NCBI RefSeq assembly: GCF_008087625.1 | Contig: NZ_CP042997.1 | Coordinates: 3,038,001-3,102,000 of the forward strand | Source: Aquisphaera giovannonii | GTDB lineage: Bacteria; Planctomycetota; Planctomycetia; Isosphaerales; Isosphaeraceae | Length of the DNA stretch: 64,000 nucleotides | Direction: 5' to 3' | In this document: positions 46,109-51,458 of the stretch, piece by piece | Layout: the number at the start of each line of letters is the position of its first letter | How positions within the stretch are numbered: position 1 is the stretch's first letter | Made by a program: the position numbers and the translations under genes | The notes under the pieces: generated by a model | Database searches by the model: none | What the model was told of the DNA's origin: nothing | Seen by the model: the letters and a program-made list of their open reading frames with translations, nothing else

Positions 46109-46359
46109 CGGGCGACGCCCTCCCAGGTCGAAGTTCTTCGTCCGCCCATTCTAGCGGAACCCGGGCCGCCTCATCAGCGCCGATACGACCTCGCGTGGCC
46201 CCGGCACCACGAGCCGATCCCCGTGTTTGGTTTTTCGCGCGAACATCCGGCTCATGTCCTCCGTCTGTTGGTTTGTGAAGCGGGTGGACCTGAAGGGCGG
46301 CCCGAACGGAAGGCCGGCCGGTCGCCCAACTCGGGTCGGTTAGCGAGGAGCTCGGGGCC

Positions 46360-46541
46360 ATGCGGGCGATATCGCGGGAACATCAATACCCTGGAGAAAC
46401 CCTCCGAGAAGGCGGCATGGACGACCCCGCTCCCGCGCGGTCCGCCCCTTTCCACTTCCAGGGCTCCTCCGGCTGAATCCCCAGGTCGCGGCACTTCCTT
46501 CGAGGATCGCCGGGCCCGGGGGCATGTCCCTGGGCCTTTTT
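46360..46541 (+). ncRNA. Putative structured RNA ending in an intrinsic terminator, ahead of the tRNA array
   Basis: No plus-strand protein gene lies between 44478 and the terminator at 46512, so the terminator must serve something else. Before it, CCCTGGA (46389-46395) pairs with TCCAGGG (46457-46463), enclosing GGCGG (46411-46415) with CCGCC (46442-46446), which makes an extended hairpin. I do not recognise SRP, tmRNA, RNase P or 6S motifs. The 5' end is a guess. The rest of the 46109-46359 gap shows nothing clear. Confidence 0.3.
46512..46541 (+). terminator. Intrinsic terminator immediately before the tRNA array
   Basis: A 10-bp stem with two G-T pairs (46513-46522 with 46527-46536) encloses a 4-nt CATG loop and is followed by five T residues (46537-46541). 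It ends 12 bp before the first tRNA gene. Confidence 0.8.
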
Positions 46542-46553
46542 CGTCCCATGCAC

Positions 46554-46625
46554 GGGCCGGTAGCTGAGATGGTCTAGCGCCACCCTGAAAAGGTGGAGAC
46601 GTGGATTCGAGCGCCACACGGCCCA
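46554..46625 (+). tRNA. tRNA-Phe(GAA), divergent or degenerate
   Basis: The anticodon arm CCACC-CTGAAAA-GGTGG gives anticodon GAA. Acceptor GGGCCGG/ACGGCCC has a G7-A66 mismatch, and the T stem GTGGA/GCCAC ends in A53-G61 instead of G-C. CCA is not encoded. It may be a decayed tRNA. Confidence 0.65.
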
Positions 46626-46653
46626 CTCCCGCACGGGGAGCTCGACGAAGGTA

Positions 46654-46725
46654 CGCCCGTTCGTCTAGCGGGCAGGACACCGCCCTTTCAAGGCGGCGAC
46701 GAGGGTTCGACTCCCTCACGGGTGA
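46654..46725 (+). tRNA. tRNA-Glu(TTC)
   Basis: A cloverleaf with acceptor CGCCCGT/ACGGGTG (one G-T pair), D arm GTC/GAC as in other tRNA-Glu genes, anticodon loop CTTTCAA and T arm GAGGG-TTCGACT-CCCTC. First pair is C1-G72. CCA is not encoded. Confidence 0.9.
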
Positions 46726-46753
46726 TCCGATGAGAATCGGAAAACAAGTCGTT

Positions 46754-46826
46754 ACGACCGGGGCGACTGGGGGCGCGGGCGGTCTCCAAAACCGCCGACT
46801 CGCGGGTTCGAATCCTGCCGGTCGTG
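46754..46826 (+). tRNA. tRNA-Trp(CCA)
   Basis: Acceptor ACGACCG/CGGTCGT, anticodon arm GCGGT-CTCCAAA-ACCGC and T stem GCGGG/CCTGC; discriminator G as usual for Trp. CCA is not encoded. Confidence 0.9.
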
Positions 46827-46844
46827 CTGGGGCGAGATGCGGGA

Positions 46845-46916
46845 GGGGTTGTGGTGTAGCGGCAGCACAGCGGCCTTTTAAGCCGGGGAGCGGGGGTTCG
46901 AGTCCCTCCAACCCCA
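46845..46916 (+). tRNA. tRNA-Lys(TTT)
   Basis: Acceptor GGGGTTG/CAACCCC, anticodon loop CTTTTAA on a CGGC/GCCG stem, T loop TTCGAGT, discriminator A. CCA is not encoded. Confidence 0.9.
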
Positions 46917-46950
46917 TCGCGGATCGGGGTGCACCACTCATGAAGAATCG

Positions 46951-47022
46951 CGGCCCGTAGCTCAGGGGTCAGAGCCTTCGGCTGATATCCGAAAGGTGGA
47001 GGTTCGACTCCTCCCGGGCCGA
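46951..47022 (+). tRNA. tRNA-Ile(GAT)
   Basis: Acceptor CGGCCCG/CGGGCCG, D arm with AGCTCAG, anticodon arm TTCGG-CTGATAT-CCGAA, T stem GGAGG/CCTCC, discriminator A. CCA is not encoded. Confidence 0.9.
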
Positions 47023-47055
47023 CTCGGTGGATTCGACGCAGTGTGATCGGAAGGC

Positions 47056-47128
47056 GGGACCAAGGTGTTAGCGGCAGCACACCTGGCTCTTAACCAGGCG
47101 GGTGAGGGTTCGAGCCCCTCTGGTCCCA
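47056..47128 (+). tRNA. tRNA-Lys(CTT)
   Basis: Acceptor GGGACCA/TGGTCCC, anticodon arm CCTGG-CTCTTAA-CCAGG, T stem GAGGG/CCCTC. With the TTT gene it gives two lysine tRNAs in the array. CCA is not encoded. Confidence 0.9.
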
Positions 47129-47160
47129 CTCTCTCTTTGACAATTCGGCGACGGTGCAAG

Positions 47161-47231
47161 GTGCCCATGATGTAACGGCAGCCTCCCGCCTTGCCATGGC
47201 GGATGTGCGGGTTCGAGTCCCGCTGGGCACT
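47161..47231 (+). tRNA. tRNA-Gly(GCC)
   Basis: Acceptor GTGCCCA/TGGGCAC with discriminator T (typical of Gly), anticodon arm CCGCC-TTGCCAT-GGCGG, T stem GCGGG/CCCGC. The D stem is weak (ATG/CCT). CCA is not encoded. Confidence 0.88.
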
Positions 47232-47236
47232 CTGAA

Positions 47237-47310
47237 CGAGGTGTAGGAAAGCGGCCGAATCCGCCTGCTTCGGGAGCAGGAGACCGCTGGTTCGAATCCA
47301 GCCACCTCGA
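47237..47310 (+). tRNA. tRNA-Pro(CGG)
   Basis: Acceptor CGAGGTG/CACCTCG, D stem GGA/TCC, anticodon arm CCTGC-TTCGGGA-GCAGG, T stem GCTGG/CCAGC. It begins 5 bp after the Gly gene. CCA is not encoded. Confidence 0.9.
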
Positions 47311-47383
47311 CATGACGCCTCCCCGGGATACGGTCGAGTTCCCTGAAGGATCCCGATCGGAGGACCAGGCTCCCGTACGCGGC

Positions 47384-48010
47384 TCAGCCGCGGAGGGGCT
47401 TGAGTTTGGCCCCCCTCGAGCGCAGGGCCTCTCGAGCGAGGAACCGGATCCAGGGGACCGCGACGTCGGAGTCGGCCTGTTCCAGATAAGGGCGGGCGTC
47501 TTCGGGCTTGCCGTGGCGATCCAGGAAGAGCCCCAGGCACGCGGCCGTGTTCACGCTGCGGCTCGGGTCGGCCCCCCGGCTGAGCTCCTCGATCGCTCGG
47601 ATGTCCAGAGGGGATTGGTCGCCGTGCGAGAGCCATTGGAATAGGACGCCCATGATCTTCGCCGTCTTCGGCCCGGAGGCCTTCGGATCCTCCGCGACGG
47701 CCTTGAGCGCGGCATCCCGGGCCTCCCCGTCCCCTTCCTGGTCGCAGGCGAGGGCGAGGAAGACGCCGTCCATCGTATTCCGGCCCTTCTCAAACTCCGG
47801 CCCGAGCAGCCGGCGAGCCACCTCAGGCTTGCCCTCCAGGAGGAGCAGGATCGAGACCTGATGCAGATCGTCCGACGTCGGCGTCCGGCCGGCGTCGAGC
47901 TGAGCCTCGACGAGCCGGGCCGCGGCGCGACGGTCGCCGCGGCCGGTCCTCAGGCACCAGGCGTACCATTCGAGCCAGGAGCCGGGATATCGCTCCGAGC
48001 AGCGGGACAC
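47384..48010 (-). pseudogene. Antisense TPR-like gene inside the tRNA array, probably 5'-truncated
   Basis: The frame ends at 47384 and codes for helical-repeat sequence rich in Ala/Leu/Asp (SILLLLEGKPEVARRLLGPE; TAACLGLFLDRHGKPEDARP), similar in feel to TPR regions. The first codon that could serve as a start is a GTG at 48010 (208 residues), without a good ribosome site. Recognisable coding sequence continues upstream (SVDGYCAELW) to about 48060 and then ends at the tRNA-Asn gene. It looks like the 3' part of a longer gene cut by the array, though a short functional gene cannot be excluded. It fills the 47311-48082 gap; I found no tRNA there. Confidence 0.55.
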
Positions 48011-48082
48011 CCAGAGCTCGGCGCAATAGCCGTCGACCGACGCGATTCCTATCAGGTTCGTGCGGCGGGCGGCGGAATCGAT

Positions 48083-48165
48083 TCCAGGGTGGCGAAACGG
48101 TAGCCGCACCTCACTGTTAATGAGGCGCCCGGGAGGGCGTGGGGGTTCGAGTCCCTCCCCTGGAG
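48083..48165 (+). tRNA. tRNA-Asn(GTT) with long variable arm
   Basis: Acceptor TCCAGGG/CCCTGGA, D stem GCG/CGC, anticodon arm CCTCA-CTGTTAA-TGAGG and T stem GGGGG/CCCTC. The variable region is 15 nt and folds (CGCCC/GGGCG), a class II arm normally limited to Ser, Leu and Tyr in bacteria. Discriminator G fits Asn and Ser. CCA is not encoded. Confidence 0.85.
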
Positions 48166-48188
48166 CTGAGCGACCGCGACGTAGGGAC

Positions 48189-48272
48189 GGAAGAGCAAGC
48201 CGACTGGCGACGGCACCCGGCCCGAAACCGGGCGAGCGACGAGCCTTGGGGGTTCGACTCCCTCCTCTTCCG
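48189..48272 (+). tRNA. tRNA-Ser(CGA), C33
   Basis: Acceptor GGAAGAG/CTCTTCC, anticodon arm CCCGG-CCCGAAA-CCGGG, 15-nt variable region and discriminator G as for Ser. Position 33, almost always U, is C. CCA is not encoded. Confidence 0.85.
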
Positions 48273-48291
48273 CTGATCGTGACTCTCTTTC

Positions 48292-48363
48292 GTGCCCCTG
48301 GCCGAGCGGCCGAGGCGCCAGCCTTCCAAGCTGGAAAGGCGGGTTCGACTCCCGCGGGGCACT
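48292..48363 (+). tRNA. tRNA-Gly(TCC)
   Basis: Acceptor GTGCCCC/GGGGCAC, discriminator T, anticodon arm CCAGC-CTTCCAA-GCTGG, T stem GCGGG/CCCGC. CCA is not encoded. Confidence 0.9.
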
Positions 48364-48364
48364 C

Positions 48365-48435
48365 TCGGGAATCGGCTAACGGCAGGCCACCTGGCCTTGA
48401 ACCAGGCGGTGGAGGTTCGAGTCCTCCTTCCCGAT
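48365..48435 (+). tRNA. tRNA-Gln(TTG), C33
   Basis: Acceptor TCGGGAA/TTCCCGA, D stem GGC/GCC, anticodon arm CCTGG-CCTTGAA-CCAGG, T stem GGAGG/CCTCC. Position 33 is C, and the discriminator is T rather than the usual G. It starts one base after the Gly gene. Confidence 0.85.
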
Positions 48436-48436
48436 T

Positions 48437-48473
48437 GGCCGGGCGGTCACTCCTGGAAAGGTGGCCGCCGGCC
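48437..48473 (+). repeat. Long hairpin between the two tRNA-Gln genes
   Basis: GGCCG (48437-48441) plus GCGGTCAC (48443-48450) pair with GTGGCCGC (48461-48468) plus CGGCC (48469-48473), with one bulged G and one G-T pair. The loop TCCTGGAAAG is 10 nt and has no following T-run. It could be a processing hairpin or a decayed tRNA anticodon arm. Confidence 0.55.
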
Positions 48474-48479
48474 GGAAGC

Positions 48480-48554
48480 TCCGGGGCAGTTGCGGTTGGT
48501 CGTGACGCCACGCCCTGAACGTGGAGGCCGCTGGTTCGATTCCAGCCCCCGGAA
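48480..48554 (+). tRNA. tRNA-Gln(CTG), C33
   Basis: Acceptor TCCGGGG/CCCCGGA, anticodon arm CCACG-CCCTGAA-CGTGG, T stem GCTGG/CCAGC. Position 33 is C. The D loop is enlarged. Discriminator A. CCA is not encoded. Confidence 0.83.
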
Positions 48555-48571
48555 CTCGCGATCTTTGATGA

Positions 48572-48656
48572 GGAAGCCATCCGGCCGGAGAGGAACCTGC
48601 TCGGAAGGCAGGCGGCGGCCCCGGGCCGCTTGTGGGTTCGAGTCCCACGGCTTCCG
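48572..48656 (+). tRNA. tRNA-Ser(GGA), C33
   Basis: Acceptor GGAAGCC/GGCTTCC, anticodon arm CCTGC-TCGGAAG-GCAGG and a long variable arm with stem GCGGC/GCCGC, as expected for Ser. Position 33 is C. CCA is not encoded. Confidence 0.85.
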
Positions 48657-48692
48657 CCTCGTCCGCCGGCCGCGGCTCCGGCCGCGTCGTAC

Positions 48693-48765
48693 GCCCTCGT
48701 GGAGCAGGGGAGTGCTCGCCACCCTGTCAAGGTGGAGGCCACGGGTTCGAATCCCGTCGAGGGCG
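48693..48765 (+). tRNA. tRNA-Asp(GTC)
   Basis: Acceptor GCCCTCG/CGAGGGC, anticodon arm CCACC-CTGTCAA-GGTGG, T stem ACGGG/CCCGT, discriminator G as for Asp. CCA is not encoded. Confidence 0.9.
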
Positions 48766-48775
48766 CTGGTCCAGG

Positions 48776-48810
48776 AATGGAGGAACACTAGTATAGAAAT
48801 GGAGGAACAC
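48776..48810 (+). repeat. 13-bp tandem direct repeat upstream of tRNA-Tyr
   Basis: AATGGAGGAACAC occurs at 48776-48788 and 48798-48810, a 22-bp period, within the relatively AT-rich spacer (TAGTATAG) before tRNA-Tyr. Function unknown. Confidence 0.7.
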
Positions 48811-48826
48811 ATCCGAATCCCTCGTC

Positions 48827-48907
48827 GCGTCGGCTGGGCACTGGCGAGCCCAGGTGGCCGTAACCCACCCGCCACCGGCTGTGCAGGTTCAACTCCTGCC
48901 CGACGCA
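48827..48907 (+). tRNA. tRNA-Tyr(GTA), C33
   Basis: Acceptor GCGTCGG/CCGACGC, D stem GGGC/GCCC, anticodon arm GGTGG-CCGTAAC-CCACC, 13-nt variable region as for bacterial Tyr, T stem GCAGG/CCTGC. Position 33 is C. Confidence 0.85.
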
Positions 48908-48937
48908 CTCGCCCCTCGTCGGGGCCATTTCCCCTAC

Positions 48938-49009
48938 GGCCCGGTCGTCTATCGGCCAGGACGCCACCCCCTCAAGGTGGAGAGGCGGGTTCGACTCCCG
49001 CCCGGGCTG
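48938..49009 (+). tRNA. tRNA-Glu(CTC), C33
   Basis: Acceptor GGCCCGG/CCGGGCT (one G-T pair), D arm GTC/GAC like the Glu(TTC) gene, anticodon arm CCACC-CCCTCAA-GGTGG. Position 33 is C. CCA is not encoded. Confidence 0.86.
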
Positions 49010-49032
49010 CTCGGCGATCCGCCCTCGATCCT

Positions 49033-49101
49033 CCCAGGCGTGGCGGGTGCCCGGCCGGCTCTCATAAGGCCGGCCTCCCGGATCGACACCGGGGCCTGGG
49101 A
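49033..49101 (+). tRNA. Compact tRNA-like gene with CAT anticodon (Met-type)
   Basis: Acceptor CCCAGGC/GCCTGGG (7 perfect pairs), D arm GGC-GGGT-GCC with only a 4-nt loop, an 8-bp anticodon stem GGCCGGCT/GGCCGGCC around CTCATAA, a one-base variable region, and T arm CCCGG-ATCGACA-CCGGG. Discriminator A. It sits in normal array spacing 5 bp before tRNA-Leu. A standard covariance scan may miss it; whether it works as tRNA is unknown. Confidence 0.6.
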
Positions 49102-49106
49102 CTTCA

Positions 49107-49180
49107 CGCACGGTACGCAAACCGGCAAAGCGGCCAGGTCGAGAGCCTGGTGCGTGTGGGTTCGACTCCCACCCGTGCGA
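49107..49180 (+). tRNA. tRNA-Leu(GAG) with short variable loop, C33
   Basis: Acceptor CGCACGG/CCGTGCG, D stem CGC/GCG, anticodon arm CCAGG-TCGAGAG-CCTGG, 5-nt variable loop TGCGT and T stem GTGGG/CCCAC. Bacterial tRNA-Leu should have a long variable arm; this one is class I. Position 33 is C. Discriminator A fits Leu. Confidence 0.82.
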
Positions 49181-49201
49181 CTCCAGGTTGGCTCCGAGGA
49201 T

Positions 49202-49273
49202 CGTCCCGTGGTCCAGCGGCCACGACGCCTCTCTTACAAAGAGGAGATGGGGGTTCGACTCCCTCCGGGACGA
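49202..49273 (+). tRNA. tRNA-Val(TAC)
   Basis: Acceptor CGTCCCG/CGGGACG, D stem GTC/GAC, anticodon arm CCTCT-CTTACAA-AGAGG, T stem GGGGG/CCCTC, discriminator A. CCA is not encoded. Confidence 0.9.
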
Positions 49274-49293
49274 TTGCGAGATGATGCTCCGCC

Positions 49294-49364
49294 GGGCGGC
49301 TGGTCCAACGGGAAGACTCCTGGTTTGCACCCAGGCAATCGGGGTTCAAGTCCCCGGCCGTCCA
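49294..49364 (+). tRNA. tRNA-Ala(TGC)
   Basis: Acceptor GGGCGGC/GCCGTCC with G3-T70, the classical alanine identity pair. Anticodon arm CCTGG-TTTGCAC-CCAGG, T stem CGGGG/CCCCG, discriminator A. Confidence 0.9.
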
Positions 49365-49393
49365 CTGTTCAATCGGTTCACAGGTCTCATCAC

Positions 49394-49479
49394 GGAAGGC
49401 AGCCGGATACGGTTGGCCGGGCCTCGGTGCTAACGAGGTTGCCCTTCCGGGCATGAGGGTTCGAATCCCTCGCCTTCCG
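49394..49479 (+). tRNA. tRNA-Ser(GCT)
   Basis: Acceptor GGAAGGC/GCCTTCC, anticodon arm CCTCG-GTGCTAA-CGAGG, variable arm TGCCC/GGGCA and T stem GAGGG/CCCTC. Position 33 is the usual T. Discriminator G. Confidence 0.9.
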
Positions 49480-49495
49480 CTCGACCAGCACGACA

Positions 49496-49568
49496 GCCCT
49501 CGGGGTGTGATGGATTCGCACTCGACCCTCCGAAGGTCGCGGACCAGGTTCGATTCCTGGCGAGGGCA
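49496..49568 (+). tRNA. tRNA-Arg(CCG)
   Basis: Acceptor GCCCTCG/CGAGGGC, D stem GTG/CAC, anticodon arm CGACC-CTCCGAA-GGTCG, T stem CCAGG/CCTGG, discriminator A. It is the last gene of the array. Confidence 0.9.
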
Positions 49569-49691
49569 TGGACCCCGCTTCCCTCCCGCCCGCCCTCGAC
49601 TTGCGCCGTCGCACGCCGCCCCGCCGGTCTGCTATCCTCTTGGGAGGAAAGTGGACAGGTTCGATCCCTCGCTGATCCGGTCGGGGACGTC

Positions 49692-51458
49692 ATGACCAGG
49701 CAACCGAAACGAAGCAGCACGCTCGCCCCGGCGCCCGCCGCGGCGGTTCGAACGTCCGCCGCCGAGGCCGCGAAGAAGCGCCGGGATCGCCGCGAGTCGG
49801 TCGAGTCGGTGGTGGTCGTCGTGGTGGCCTTCCTCCTCTGGAGTTTCGAGGCCGAAGGGTTCGTGATCCCGACCGGATCGATGGCCCCGACCCTCATGGG
49901 CCGGCACAAGGACGTGACCTGCCCGGAATGCGGGCACGTCTACACCGTGAACGCCGACAGCGAGGTCGATTCCAGCGGCTCGGGCGCCAGCACGGGGGTG
50001 AAGATCGTCCGGGGGACGTGCGAGAACTGCCGGTGCCCCGCCCGCGTGGACGGCGTGCCGAGCGTCGCCGGGGACCGGATCTACACCATGAAGAAGGGCC
50101 TCCACCTGCCCCTCGTCCCGGCGCTGGGCGAGGTCGGGCCCCGCCGCTGGGAGATCGCCGTCTTCAAGGTCCCGGAGGAGCCGGAGGTCCGCTACATCAA
50201 GCGCCAGGTCGGCCTGCCATCGGAGATCGTCCGGCTCCAGCAGGGGGACCTCTGGAGGCGGCCGCTGGATGAATCCGAGCCGTTCGCCCGGCTGCGTCGC
50301 CCTTTCGCCCACCAGAAGGCGATGCAGGTCCTGGTCTACGACGACGCCCACCGCGCCCGCTCGCTGCGAGACGACCCGAGGTGGGACCGCTGGGCCTCGT
50401 CCTCCGACGGATGGTCCGAGTCGTCGCCGGGCCGTTTCGCCGTCAACGCGGCGGCGGAGTCCTGGTCCGAGCTCCGCTACCGGAACCTCGTCCCGGAGCC
50501 CCGCCACTGGGATGCCATCGCCGACGGCGAGAAGCCGCCGGCGCCGCGGACCTCGCTCGTCACCGATTTCTGCTCGTACAACACCGACCTGAGCCCCCAC
50601 TGGCAGTCCAACCCGAGGCTCGCATCCCGCCCGTGGCTCCAGCCACACTGGGTCGGGGACCTGACCCTCTCGGGACGCGTGAAGATCACCCAGCCGACGG
50701 GCACGCTGCGCCTGGCCCTGATCAAAGGGGGCCGCCTCTATCATGCGGACGTGGACCTGCAGTCGGGCCGGGCGACGCTCCTCCGCGACGATGAGCCACT
50801 CGGCGAGGCCGCCGCCACGCGACTGAACGAGGTCGGGGAACATAGCTTCACATTGTCCAACGTGGACGACCGGCTGACCCTGGAAGTGGATGGGAATCTG
50901 CCCTTCGGGGACGGCCTGCCGTACGACTCGGGAGGCGCTGATGGCCTGGCCCGGCCGGCGAGTGCGGACCTCGAGCCGGCGCGGATCGCGGCGCGCGGCG
51001 TCCCGCTGGAGGTCGCCGGCCTCCAGCTACGCCGCGACGTCTACTACACCCTGAGCCCCGGGGATGCGGACCTCCCCGGGCTGGAGTCGCTGGCCTTCCA
51101 GGGGCCGAATGCCCTGTTCGACCTGCTCGCCGACCCGGAGGCGTACGGCAGGCTCGGCCAGCCCGGCTGGCACGATTACCCGATCGGCCCCGGGCGATAC
51201 ATGATGCTGGGGGACAACAGCCCCTGGAGCCGGGACGGCCGGGCCTGGGGGCGTAAGGACCAGGTCGACCCCGAGGCCCCCGGCCTCGGCTGGGACGAGT
51301 CCGGCCGCGAGAGCTGGGAGGTGCCCGAATCGCTCATCATCGGCAAGGCCTTCTGGGTCTACTGGCCCCACCTCCAGCCCATGTGGCCCGCCTGGCAGCT
51401 CGGCGACTACCGGTTCCCCGTCCGGCCGAACTTCGAACAGATTCGTTGGATACGCTGA
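49692..51458 (+). CDS. lepB: Oversized signal peptidase I with zinc-ribbon-like and beta-sandwich inserts
   Basis: The 588-residue membrane protease removes signal peptides. After a basic N-terminus a single transmembrane helix (VVVVVVAFLLWSF) precedes the catalytic Ser63 in VIPTGSMAPTL. The catalytic Lys is in RYIKRQVGLPSE (~170), and the late box is MMLGDNSPWSRDGRAWG (~506). Normal enzymes have 170-320 residues. Here CPECGHVY...CENCRCPA (Cys pairs at ~77/80 and ~113/116, zinc-ribbon-like) lies between the Ser and Lys, and about 330 residues with beta-strand sequence (LTLSGRVKITQPTGTLRLAL) separate the Lys from the last box. Confidence 0.88.
   Translation: MTRQPKRSSTLAPAPAAAVRTSAAEAAKKRRDRRESVESVVVVVVAFLLWSFEAEGFVIPTGSMAPTLMGRHKDVTCPECGHVYTVNADSEVDSSGSGASTGVKIVRGTCENCRCPARVDGVPSVAGDRIYTMKKGLHLPLVPALGEVGPRRWEIAVFKVPEEPEVRYIKRQVGLPSEIVRLQQGDLWRRPLDESEPFARLRRPFAHQKAMQVLVYDDAHRARSLRDDPRWDRWASSSDGWSESSPGRFAVNAAAESWSELRYRNLVPEPRHWDAIADGEKPPAPRTSLVTDFCSYNTDLSPHWQSNPRLASRPWLQPHWVGDLTLSGRVKITQPTGTLRLALIKGGRLYHADVDLQSGRATLLRDDEPLGEAAATRLNEVGEHSFTLSNVDDRLTLEVDGNLPFGDGLPYDSGGADGLARPASADLEPARIAARGVPLEVAGLQLRRDVYYTLSPGDADLPGLESLAFQGPNALFDLLADPEAYGRLGQPGWHDYPIGPGRYMMLGDNSPWSRDGRAWGRKDQVDPEAPGLGWDESGRESWEVPESLIIGKAFWVYWPHLQPMWPAWQLGDYRFPVRPNFEQIRWIR

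Follow-up and report, generated by a model that had tools for sequence, protein, structure and literature searches.

Position 33 varies between U and C in a conserved second set of tRNA genes in Aquisphaera giovannonii and other Planctomycetia

Uridine 33 is treated as nearly invariant in tRNAs because it makes the U-turn of the anticodon loop. Large, non-standard tRNA clusters that lie beside a normal tRNA set have been described in planctomycetes, in passages that do not mention position 33 (PMC4807772), and according to passages of PMC10272220 the trn operon of Anabaena sp. PCC 7120 is likewise a second array, of 26 tRNA genes beside 48 scattered housekeeping tRNA genes. Passages on the genomes of the Isosphaeraceae report 47-79 tRNAs and do not discuss arrays (PMC5352709), and we found no report of C33 in planctomycete tRNAs in the titles, abstract beginnings and passages of the open-licence papers listed by our searches. 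Here we analyzed a tRNA array of Aquisphaera giovannonii, which lies in a stretch of 64,000 nucleotides (the window; contig NZ_CP042997.1, positions 3,038,001 to 3,102,000) of a 10.5-Mb genome in three contigs (coded G000). The array occupies positions 46554-49568 of the window on the + strand, where ARAGORN predicts 23 tRNA genes in 3.0 kb, with same-order arrays in the congeners. Its dense run of more than 20 genes and the separate housekeeping set of 46 dispersed tRNAs are what is expected of a bacterial accessory array; that it is of the same kind as the published planctomycete clusters is judged from their description, not from sequence. tRNA arrays and natural exceptions to U33 are both known; what is new is a conserved second tRNA set in which U33 is labile, together with a housekeeping tRNA in which C33 is nearly fixed.

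A preliminary description of the window, made from the letters alone, had named seven array tRNAs with C33. A structure-resolved reading returned exactly this set, each with a 5-bp anticodon stem and a 7-nt loop, and the positions given for the genes were borne out, with Leu(GAG) ending at 49181. All are on the + strand. tRNA-Ser(CGA) (48189-48273) and tRNA-Gln(UUG) (48365-48435) have C33 also in A. insulae and U33 in the other congener, G001. tRNA-Gln(CUG) (48480-48555) and tRNA-Glu(CUC) (48938-49010) have U33 in both congeners, as does tRNA-Ser(GGA) (48572-48658), whose G001 counterpart also has the anticodon UGA. tRNA-Tyr(GUA) (48827-48908) shares C33 with G001 and has U33 in A. insulae, and tRNA-Leu(GAG) (49107-49181), with a short variable arm, shares C33 with A. 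insulae and has no G001 orthologue at this place. Covariance models bore this reading out in part: the Rfam tRNA alignments reproduced the loop for Gln(UUG), Glu(CUC) and Leu(GAG), and Ser(CGA), Ser(GGA), Tyr and Gln(CUG) fitted the tRNA-Sec model best, below the cut-off.

In the host genome C33 was found in 7/23 array tRNAs versus 1/46 dispersed tRNAs (Fisher p=0.0014; the 46 omit the selenocysteine tRNA and two two-gene loci). The sole dispersed C33 tRNA is Val(GAC), and the other 45/46 have U33. A second well assembled genome, G057, gave the same picture, with U33 in 44/45 distinct dispersed tRNA sequences, Val(GAC) again being the exception, and C33 in 8/27 array tRNAs.

All seven C33 tRNAs had been placed in the second half of the array, and this clustering had been taken to suggest a shared origin, drift after relaxed selection or altered decoding. 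The placement holds in the window, where the array forms a block of 8 genes (46554-47311) and a block of 15 (48083-49568), both on the + strand: the first eight tRNAs all have U33 and the seven with C33 are among the last 15 (chance 0.026 in a simple draw). It does not hold in the other 31 genomes, where C33 occurs in 19/212 tRNAs of the first-half isoacceptors versus 48/482 of the others (p=0.78), and we rejected the idea that C33 generally clusters in the second half. Nor did we find support for a common origin of the seven. A. insulae has C33 in three of the seven (Gln(UUG), Leu(GAG), Ser(CGA)) and G001 in one of the six with an orthologue (Tyr), the rest having U33, and other genera put C33 in different isoacceptors (60/408 genus-by-isoacceptor cells, in 12/16 genera). 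Some close relatives do have U33, but A. insulae shares C33 at three of these sites, which excludes sequencing error. Nor is C33 standard in the arrays of the class; among the tRNAs read, the only one in which it is nearly so is the housekeeping Val(GAC).

Across the class we read position 33 in 722 array tRNAs of 32 genomes, a survey that omits ARAGORN predictions with ambiguous anticodons and 3/725 isolated tRNAs; a short anticodon-loop sequence pattern had proved unspecific as a search query. Position 33 is U in 643, C in 74, G in 3 and A in 2, and C33 is spread over 22/32 genomes and 28 anticodons. By contrast, the non-U letters of position 8 are G in 123, C in 75 and A in 66 tRNAs, so that the spectrum at 33 (74 C, 5 purine) differs strongly from that at 8 (75 C, 189 purine; p=8e-27). 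Since the letters at position 8 spread over G, C and A, we conclude that position 33 is still held to a pyrimidine.

The occurrence of C33 further depends on the anticodon (the five G33/A33 tRNAs are omitted from these tests). With G/C at base 36, 53/380 tRNAs have C33 versus 21/337 with A/U (p=0.0008), or 43/219 versus 17/189 when counted per genus-by-isoacceptor cell (p=0.003). For base 35 the counts are 44/325 with a purine versus 30/392 with a pyrimidine (p=0.013), and 34/186 versus 26/222 per cell (p=0.07). Taken together, C33 is found in 29/153 tRNAs with purine 35 and G/C 36, in 24/227 with pyrimidine 35 and G/C 36, in 15/172 with purine 35 and A/U 36 and in 6/165 with pyrimidine 35 and A/U 36; the excess in the first class has a within-genome permutation p=0.0002, and anticodons made up of A and U have none (0/36). 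Passages of PMC5372741 state that U33 is invariant in tRNAs for codons starting with U or A, and describe a bond between the 2'-OH of residue 33 and N7 of purine 35. The anticodon pattern fits both statements, as does the housekeeping Val(GAC) with its purine 35 and C36, and the dependence on bases 35 and 36 points to selection for decoding that persists at these loops.

Editing of C33 to U33 in the RNA would leave the DNA free to carry either base, as the nearly exclusive U/C change at 33 might suggest, and C8-to-U8 tRNA editing in an archaeon is a precedent. However, editing predicts neither the anticodon dependence nor the near-fixed C33 of Val(GAC), and a literature search on such editing gave nothing on topic, judged by title; we regard this explanation as highly improbable.

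The fraction of C33 among array tRNAs correlates with the GC content of the sampled stretches (rho 0.64, p=5e-4, over the 26 genomes that have 12 or more array tRNAs), and the two genomes lowest in GC (G030, G034) have C33 in 0/55 array tRNAs. We read this trend as mutation pressure on a weakly constrained site that is still relevant for decoding. C33 could instead be selected, if variant loops evade tRNases whose cut falls at U33 or beside it, a kind of escape that has been proposed for phage tRNAs. Positions 32, 33 and 38 do change fast around a frozen anticodon, ARAGORN finds C33 in 2/22 tRNAs of a 49-kb stretch of the phage Alice, and escape mutations in the anticodon loop have a precedent in PMC10264068, the text of which has neither position 33 nor U33. 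But the fast positions are those that are least constrained structurally, and the U/C toggling and GC correlation fit mutation pressure. Moreover, C33 is absent from Lys(UUU) (0/20) and Lys(CUU) (0/24), though passages of PMC10264068 name tRNA-Lys(UUU) as the target of PrrC. Selection for tRNase escape thus appears very unlikely.

The tRNAs that carry this labile position are otherwise well conserved. Against A. insulae (22 tRNAs, including the Ser(CGA) of A. insulae, which ARAGORN missed and which is counted here and not in the class survey), the tRNA bodies differ at 84/1666 sites (5.0%), and the spacers, which are close to unalignable, at 210/442 aligned sites (47.5%). Against G001 (18 tRNAs) the differences are 117/1355 and 231/402. 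No change from A. insulae was seen at 220 T-stem or 66 anticodon sites, whereas position 33 differs in 5/22 tRNAs, always as T/C. In 201 orthologue pairs from 11 genome pairs, which were matched by name so that their anticodon positions are equal by construction, position 33 differs in 23/201 versus 639/10854 elsewhere (binomial p=0.0019, about twofold), and 21/23 of these differences are C/U. Positions 32, 38 and 59 change more than 33 (32, 36 and 35 of 201) and T55 never. Of the two explanations left from the preliminary description, altered decoding gained no support, with anticodon changes at 0/66 sites against A. insulae and 1/54 against G001 and most isotype-specific identity elements retained. 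Drift after relaxed selection stands for position 33 itself; as the drift of useless genes it fails, since the remaining tRNA sites are under strong purifying selection.

This conservation has to be set against a relaxed tRNA core. In 416 array tRNAs we counted 146 without U8, 165 without A14, 73 without a purine at 15, 111 without a pyrimidine at 48 and 130 without A21; the host core tRNAs show none of these losses except at position 14 (7/46), where the D-loop numbering of the parser is least certain. Other positions are kept, with 2 tRNAs lacking a purine at 37, 4 lacking U55, 1 lacking C56 and 1 lacking A58; the T-loop figures lean towards conservation because ARAGORN favours intact T-loops. 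We rejected C33 as a sign of general decay: core losses in the family are no higher in C33 tRNAs (mean 1.20 of 5, n=30) than in U33 tRNAs (1.52, n=228; p=0.23).

The array as a whole might still be a decaying, horizontally acquired cluster with C33 as one of many neutral hits. The lost U8, A14, R15, Y48 and A21 speak for this, as do the absence of the array from many relatives and the low covariance scores, with 14/23 array tRNAs passing the Rfam gathering score in the window scan and 16/23 in the whole-genome scan (9/23 and 7/23 below it), and it is the view taken in print of the "degenerate tRNA gene clusters" of planctomycetes (passages of PMC4807772). A cluster of tRNA pseudogenes would, however, show near-neutral substitution and broken stems, and we found 5.0% versus 47.5% divergence and, in each of the seven C33 tRNAs, an unbroken anticodon stem of 5 bp. 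The tRNA bodies are about tenfold less diverged than the spacers, with anticodons and T-stems frozen; the discriminator bases are isotype-specific, the change at 33 is confined to U/C and the leader hairpin covaries (see below); and the best plasmid and phage matches among those listed cover 4% and 3% of the array. For the tRNA bodies decay is already largely refuted, and overall we consider it distinctly unlikely.

The discriminator base mostly follows the isotype as in the core set: it is G in Ser (36/36), Asp (17/17), Trp (14/14) and Asn (14/15), U in Gly (29/30) and Thr (18/19), and C in His (11/13). The G3:U70 pair is present in 15/21 array tRNA-Ala versus 2/395 other array tRNAs. Array tRNAs that retain their identity elements and T-arm, with relaxation at U33 and in the core, could also be charged and serve outside the ribosome, as aminoacyl donors, decoys or a source of tRNA fragments, which would set U33 free. 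Yet C33 depends on bases 35 and 36 as decoding would predict, position 37 is a purine in all but 2/416 tRNAs, a wide range of anticodons is kept and a housekeeping tRNA uses C33 too. A non-ribosomal role is therefore unlikely in our view.

Arrays with related tRNAs in similar order are present in both congeners and in other families of the class (f2, f3, f5, f9), and the A. insulae array has the same place and flanking genes. The array is missing or reduced in many genomes, even within one genus, and is therefore dispensable. With their host core counterparts of the same anticodon, 22/23 array tRNAs are 50-71% identical, too little for a recent duplication; the remaining one, Lys(UUU), has no core counterpart. 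We found no sign of a phage- or plasmid-borne array, the best match covering 4% of it for plasmids and 3% for phages among the matches listed. An origin of the array from a mobile element was rejected in view of ordinary flanks (the only place where mobile genes were looked for), the position conserved in A. insulae and the tiny plasmid and phage matches. The best reading is that of an old, vertically kept and often lost second tRNA set.

Outside the arrays, C33 is a feature of one housekeeping tRNA. In the family it is present in all 28 Val(GAC) genes of 24 loci (the other 6/30 loci are Val(UAC)), and in other families in 9/10, the exception being one f2 genome. Overall, Val(GAC) has C33 in 33/34 genomes in which it was read (host gene L036, G000:C1:8485219-8485292; loci L115-L160), a class-wide share that may be overstated, as the searches ranked genes by how closely they resembled a C33 query, which biases them towards C33, and that omits families f4, f5 and f11. 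The codon GUC makes up 178/296 Val codons in six window ORFs.

The array is preceded by a terminator-like hairpin at 46512-46537 (+ strand), which has 11 bp followed by TTTTCG and lies 16 nt 5' of the first tRNA. A hairpin with the consensus GGCCCGGTGTC-loop-GACACCGGGCC is found directly 5' of the first tRNA in 18/23 Phe-led arrays from several families of the class, and by our reading at least 4 T follow it in 12/18. It also precedes at least two arrays that are not led by Phe (L095, L097; among the matches listed, 60 of 110). In an alignment of the 18 sequences, which omits the five arrays without the hairpin, 89.3% of cells pair; the covariation score of 0.276 and the 13 both-side-changed cells were reached in 0/500 shuffles, and both values drop when the partners are slid. 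The gene upstream of the window hairpin is on the opposite strand, so that the hairpin is no obvious terminator of an upstream + strand gene. The number of terminator-like sites in 3.6 kb of the window (4 versus 2.2 +/- 1.6 in shuffles) is not unusual by itself. A strict hairpin pattern matched 13 places in 12/79 class genomes, compared with 2 for a reversed control pattern: at 7/13 a T-run and a tRNA array come next (L232, L235-L238, L240, L241), at one more two tRNA genes, and five have no tRNA nearby. The window's own hairpin does not match the strict pattern. It is a natural inference that the hairpin may act as a gate on transcription.

From these observations we think it rather probable that the array is a conditional second tRNA set, chargeable and probably competent in decoding, in which GC-biased mutation makes U33 into C where the loop tolerates it. 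The set would be separate from the housekeeping set and placed 3' of the conserved terminator-like leader hairpin. Its tRNAs would remain substrates for processing, charging and probably decoding, because purifying selection acts on the anticodon, the T-arm and the acceptor stem as well as on most identity elements; their conditional expression may go with a role under stress. Since they would bear little everyday decoding load, the constraint on peak performance would be relaxed, at U33 and in the U8/A14/15-48/21 core alike. In GC-rich genomes mutation would then turn U33 to C33, back and forth, and C33 would be found mostly where, even with U33 gone, purine 35 and G/C 36 can hold the U-turn and keep the first codon pair strong. 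Rather than decayed debris, the cluster is probably a functional reserve set of tRNAs. More tentatively, the Planctomycetia may possess an ancient leader-gated set that works on the ribosome with C33 in many of its isoacceptors, plus a C33 Val(GAC) for the commonest Val codon; in this class U33 would then not be required for efficient elongation, and its loss would follow a rule set by bases 35 and 36.

Several points weigh against this reading. Array stretches were obtained from 24/43 family genomes searched (of a sample of 45; G053 and G054 lay outside the array search, and one match in G044 is not in the counts), which underlines how dispensable the array is. The anticodon effect amounts to 2-5 fold rather than being absolute, and is weaker when counted per genus; G/C at 36 is found in only 4/7 C33 tRNAs of the window, and overall 4/14 Tyr(GUA) tRNAs carry C33, contrary to both anticodon rules. 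As to identity, 6/21 array tRNA-Ala lack G3:U70, and Gln has lost its identity at 73 (core G, array A in 13/17). A short variable arm is unusual for bacterial tRNA-Leu, and most array tRNA-Leu genes across the class, such as that at 49107-49181, have variable arms of 5-7 nt. Because ARAGORN requires a T-loop, some of the T-loop conservation in the survey may be ascertainment. No hairpin is visible in 5/23 Phe-led arrays (L081, L166, L170, L176, L178), and weaker controls for its covariation were reached by shuffling (5 both-side-changed pairs by 38/500 shuffles, 15 pair types by 26/500). Finally, passages of PMC3664417 report that in yeast mutation of U33 markedly degrades translational efficiency, and that in yeast tRNA-Gln(CUG) U33C gives a growth phenotype and U33G none.

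The array is flanked by ordinary chromosomal genes, among them those for a kinase and a LepB-type peptidase and two ORFs without a Pfam match; a LepB scan of relatives returned only two loci, of which one lacks tRNA genes. An open frame (47384-48082, - strand), part of a longer ORF, separates the two tRNA blocks. Pfam gave no match for this gap ORF, for an upstream 622-aa ORF or for a 328-aa ORF, the Rfam scan of the window reported tRNA as the only family, and a sigma-70 promoter scan of 46300-49900 found none. By our reading, there is no room for missed tRNA genes inside the window array. The array tRNA-Asn(GUU) (48083-48166) has a long variable arm in this genus; its best core match is tRNA-Leu(UAG) (68%) and G73 is kept, so that the gene appears to be a chimera, with Asn ends on a Leu-like body.

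The host has a second array (L001 5289-8013; G000:C1:6718288-6721012) of 20 tRNAs, all with U33, of which 18 end in CCA. It contains a LAGLIDADG-like ORF (below the Pfam cut-off), is immediately followed by an RtcB ligase gene and has the look of a mobile or phage-type array. The two two-gene tRNA loci outside the arrays (L041 173-249; L003) resemble remnants of arrays, and one of them holds a C33 Glu(CUC). The Rfam hits of G000 and G057 include no dispersed tRNA-Lys(UUU); the Lys(UUU) genes found in G000 are only in its two arrays, and none was found in G057. AAA may be read by the product of an intron-bearing Lys(UUU) gene. We rejected the array Lys(UUU) as the only AAA reader of the family, with a good match in only 15/45 family genomes. 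Three G-C pairs are expected in the anticodon stem of an initiator tRNA, and neither dispersed Met(CAU) tRNA (L014 4098-4171, L024 172-246) shows this set of three. There is no C33 initiator of the eukaryotic type among the seven C33 tRNAs of the window, which are Ser, Gln, Gln, Ser, Tyr, Glu and Leu; the array Met(CAU) has U33.

Natural U33 exceptions in working tRNAs include the C33 eukaryotic initiator (passages of PMC9023262) and the G33 tRNA-Ser(CAG) of Candida (passages of PMC1991585). These are single specialised tRNAs, whereas C33 here extends over 28 anticodons and a housekeeping bacterial Val tRNA. Passages of PMC9023262 regard most annotated eukaryotic tRNA genes that deviate at such conserved positions as likely pseudogenes. 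The dozens of natural C33 tRNA genes and the conserved C33 housekeeping tRNA amount to an evolutionary experiment on the need for U33 and on the conditions under which another base can take its place.

Among tRNA arrays, those of mycobacteriophages are likewise dense and have variant anticodon loops (passages of PMC10264068), and C33 is present in the Val(CAC) and Val(GAC) tRNAs of phage Alice; these arrays are phage-borne, whereas the planctomycete array lies among ordinary chromosomal genes at a position conserved in A. insulae. High-density tRNA array units, on the chromosome, a plasmid or a phage, are also described for Mycobacterium in PMC5966550, in the main text of which the terms Planctomycetes and anticodon loop are absent. 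The planctomycete clusters were called partly degraded and possibly dispensable in passages of PMC4807772; we see purifying selection, identity elements, similar order and a leader hairpin. These "degenerate" clusters can be recast as a second set that is conserved and probably regulated, and in which the role of accessory arrays can be tested. The nearest functional precedent is the Anabaena trn operon, which according to passages of PMC10272220 resides on a megaplasmid, has TrcR as its repressor and is induced by antibiotics that target translation; the array studied here is chromosomal and has a conserved leader hairpin, which would be compatible with gated, Anabaena-like transcription.

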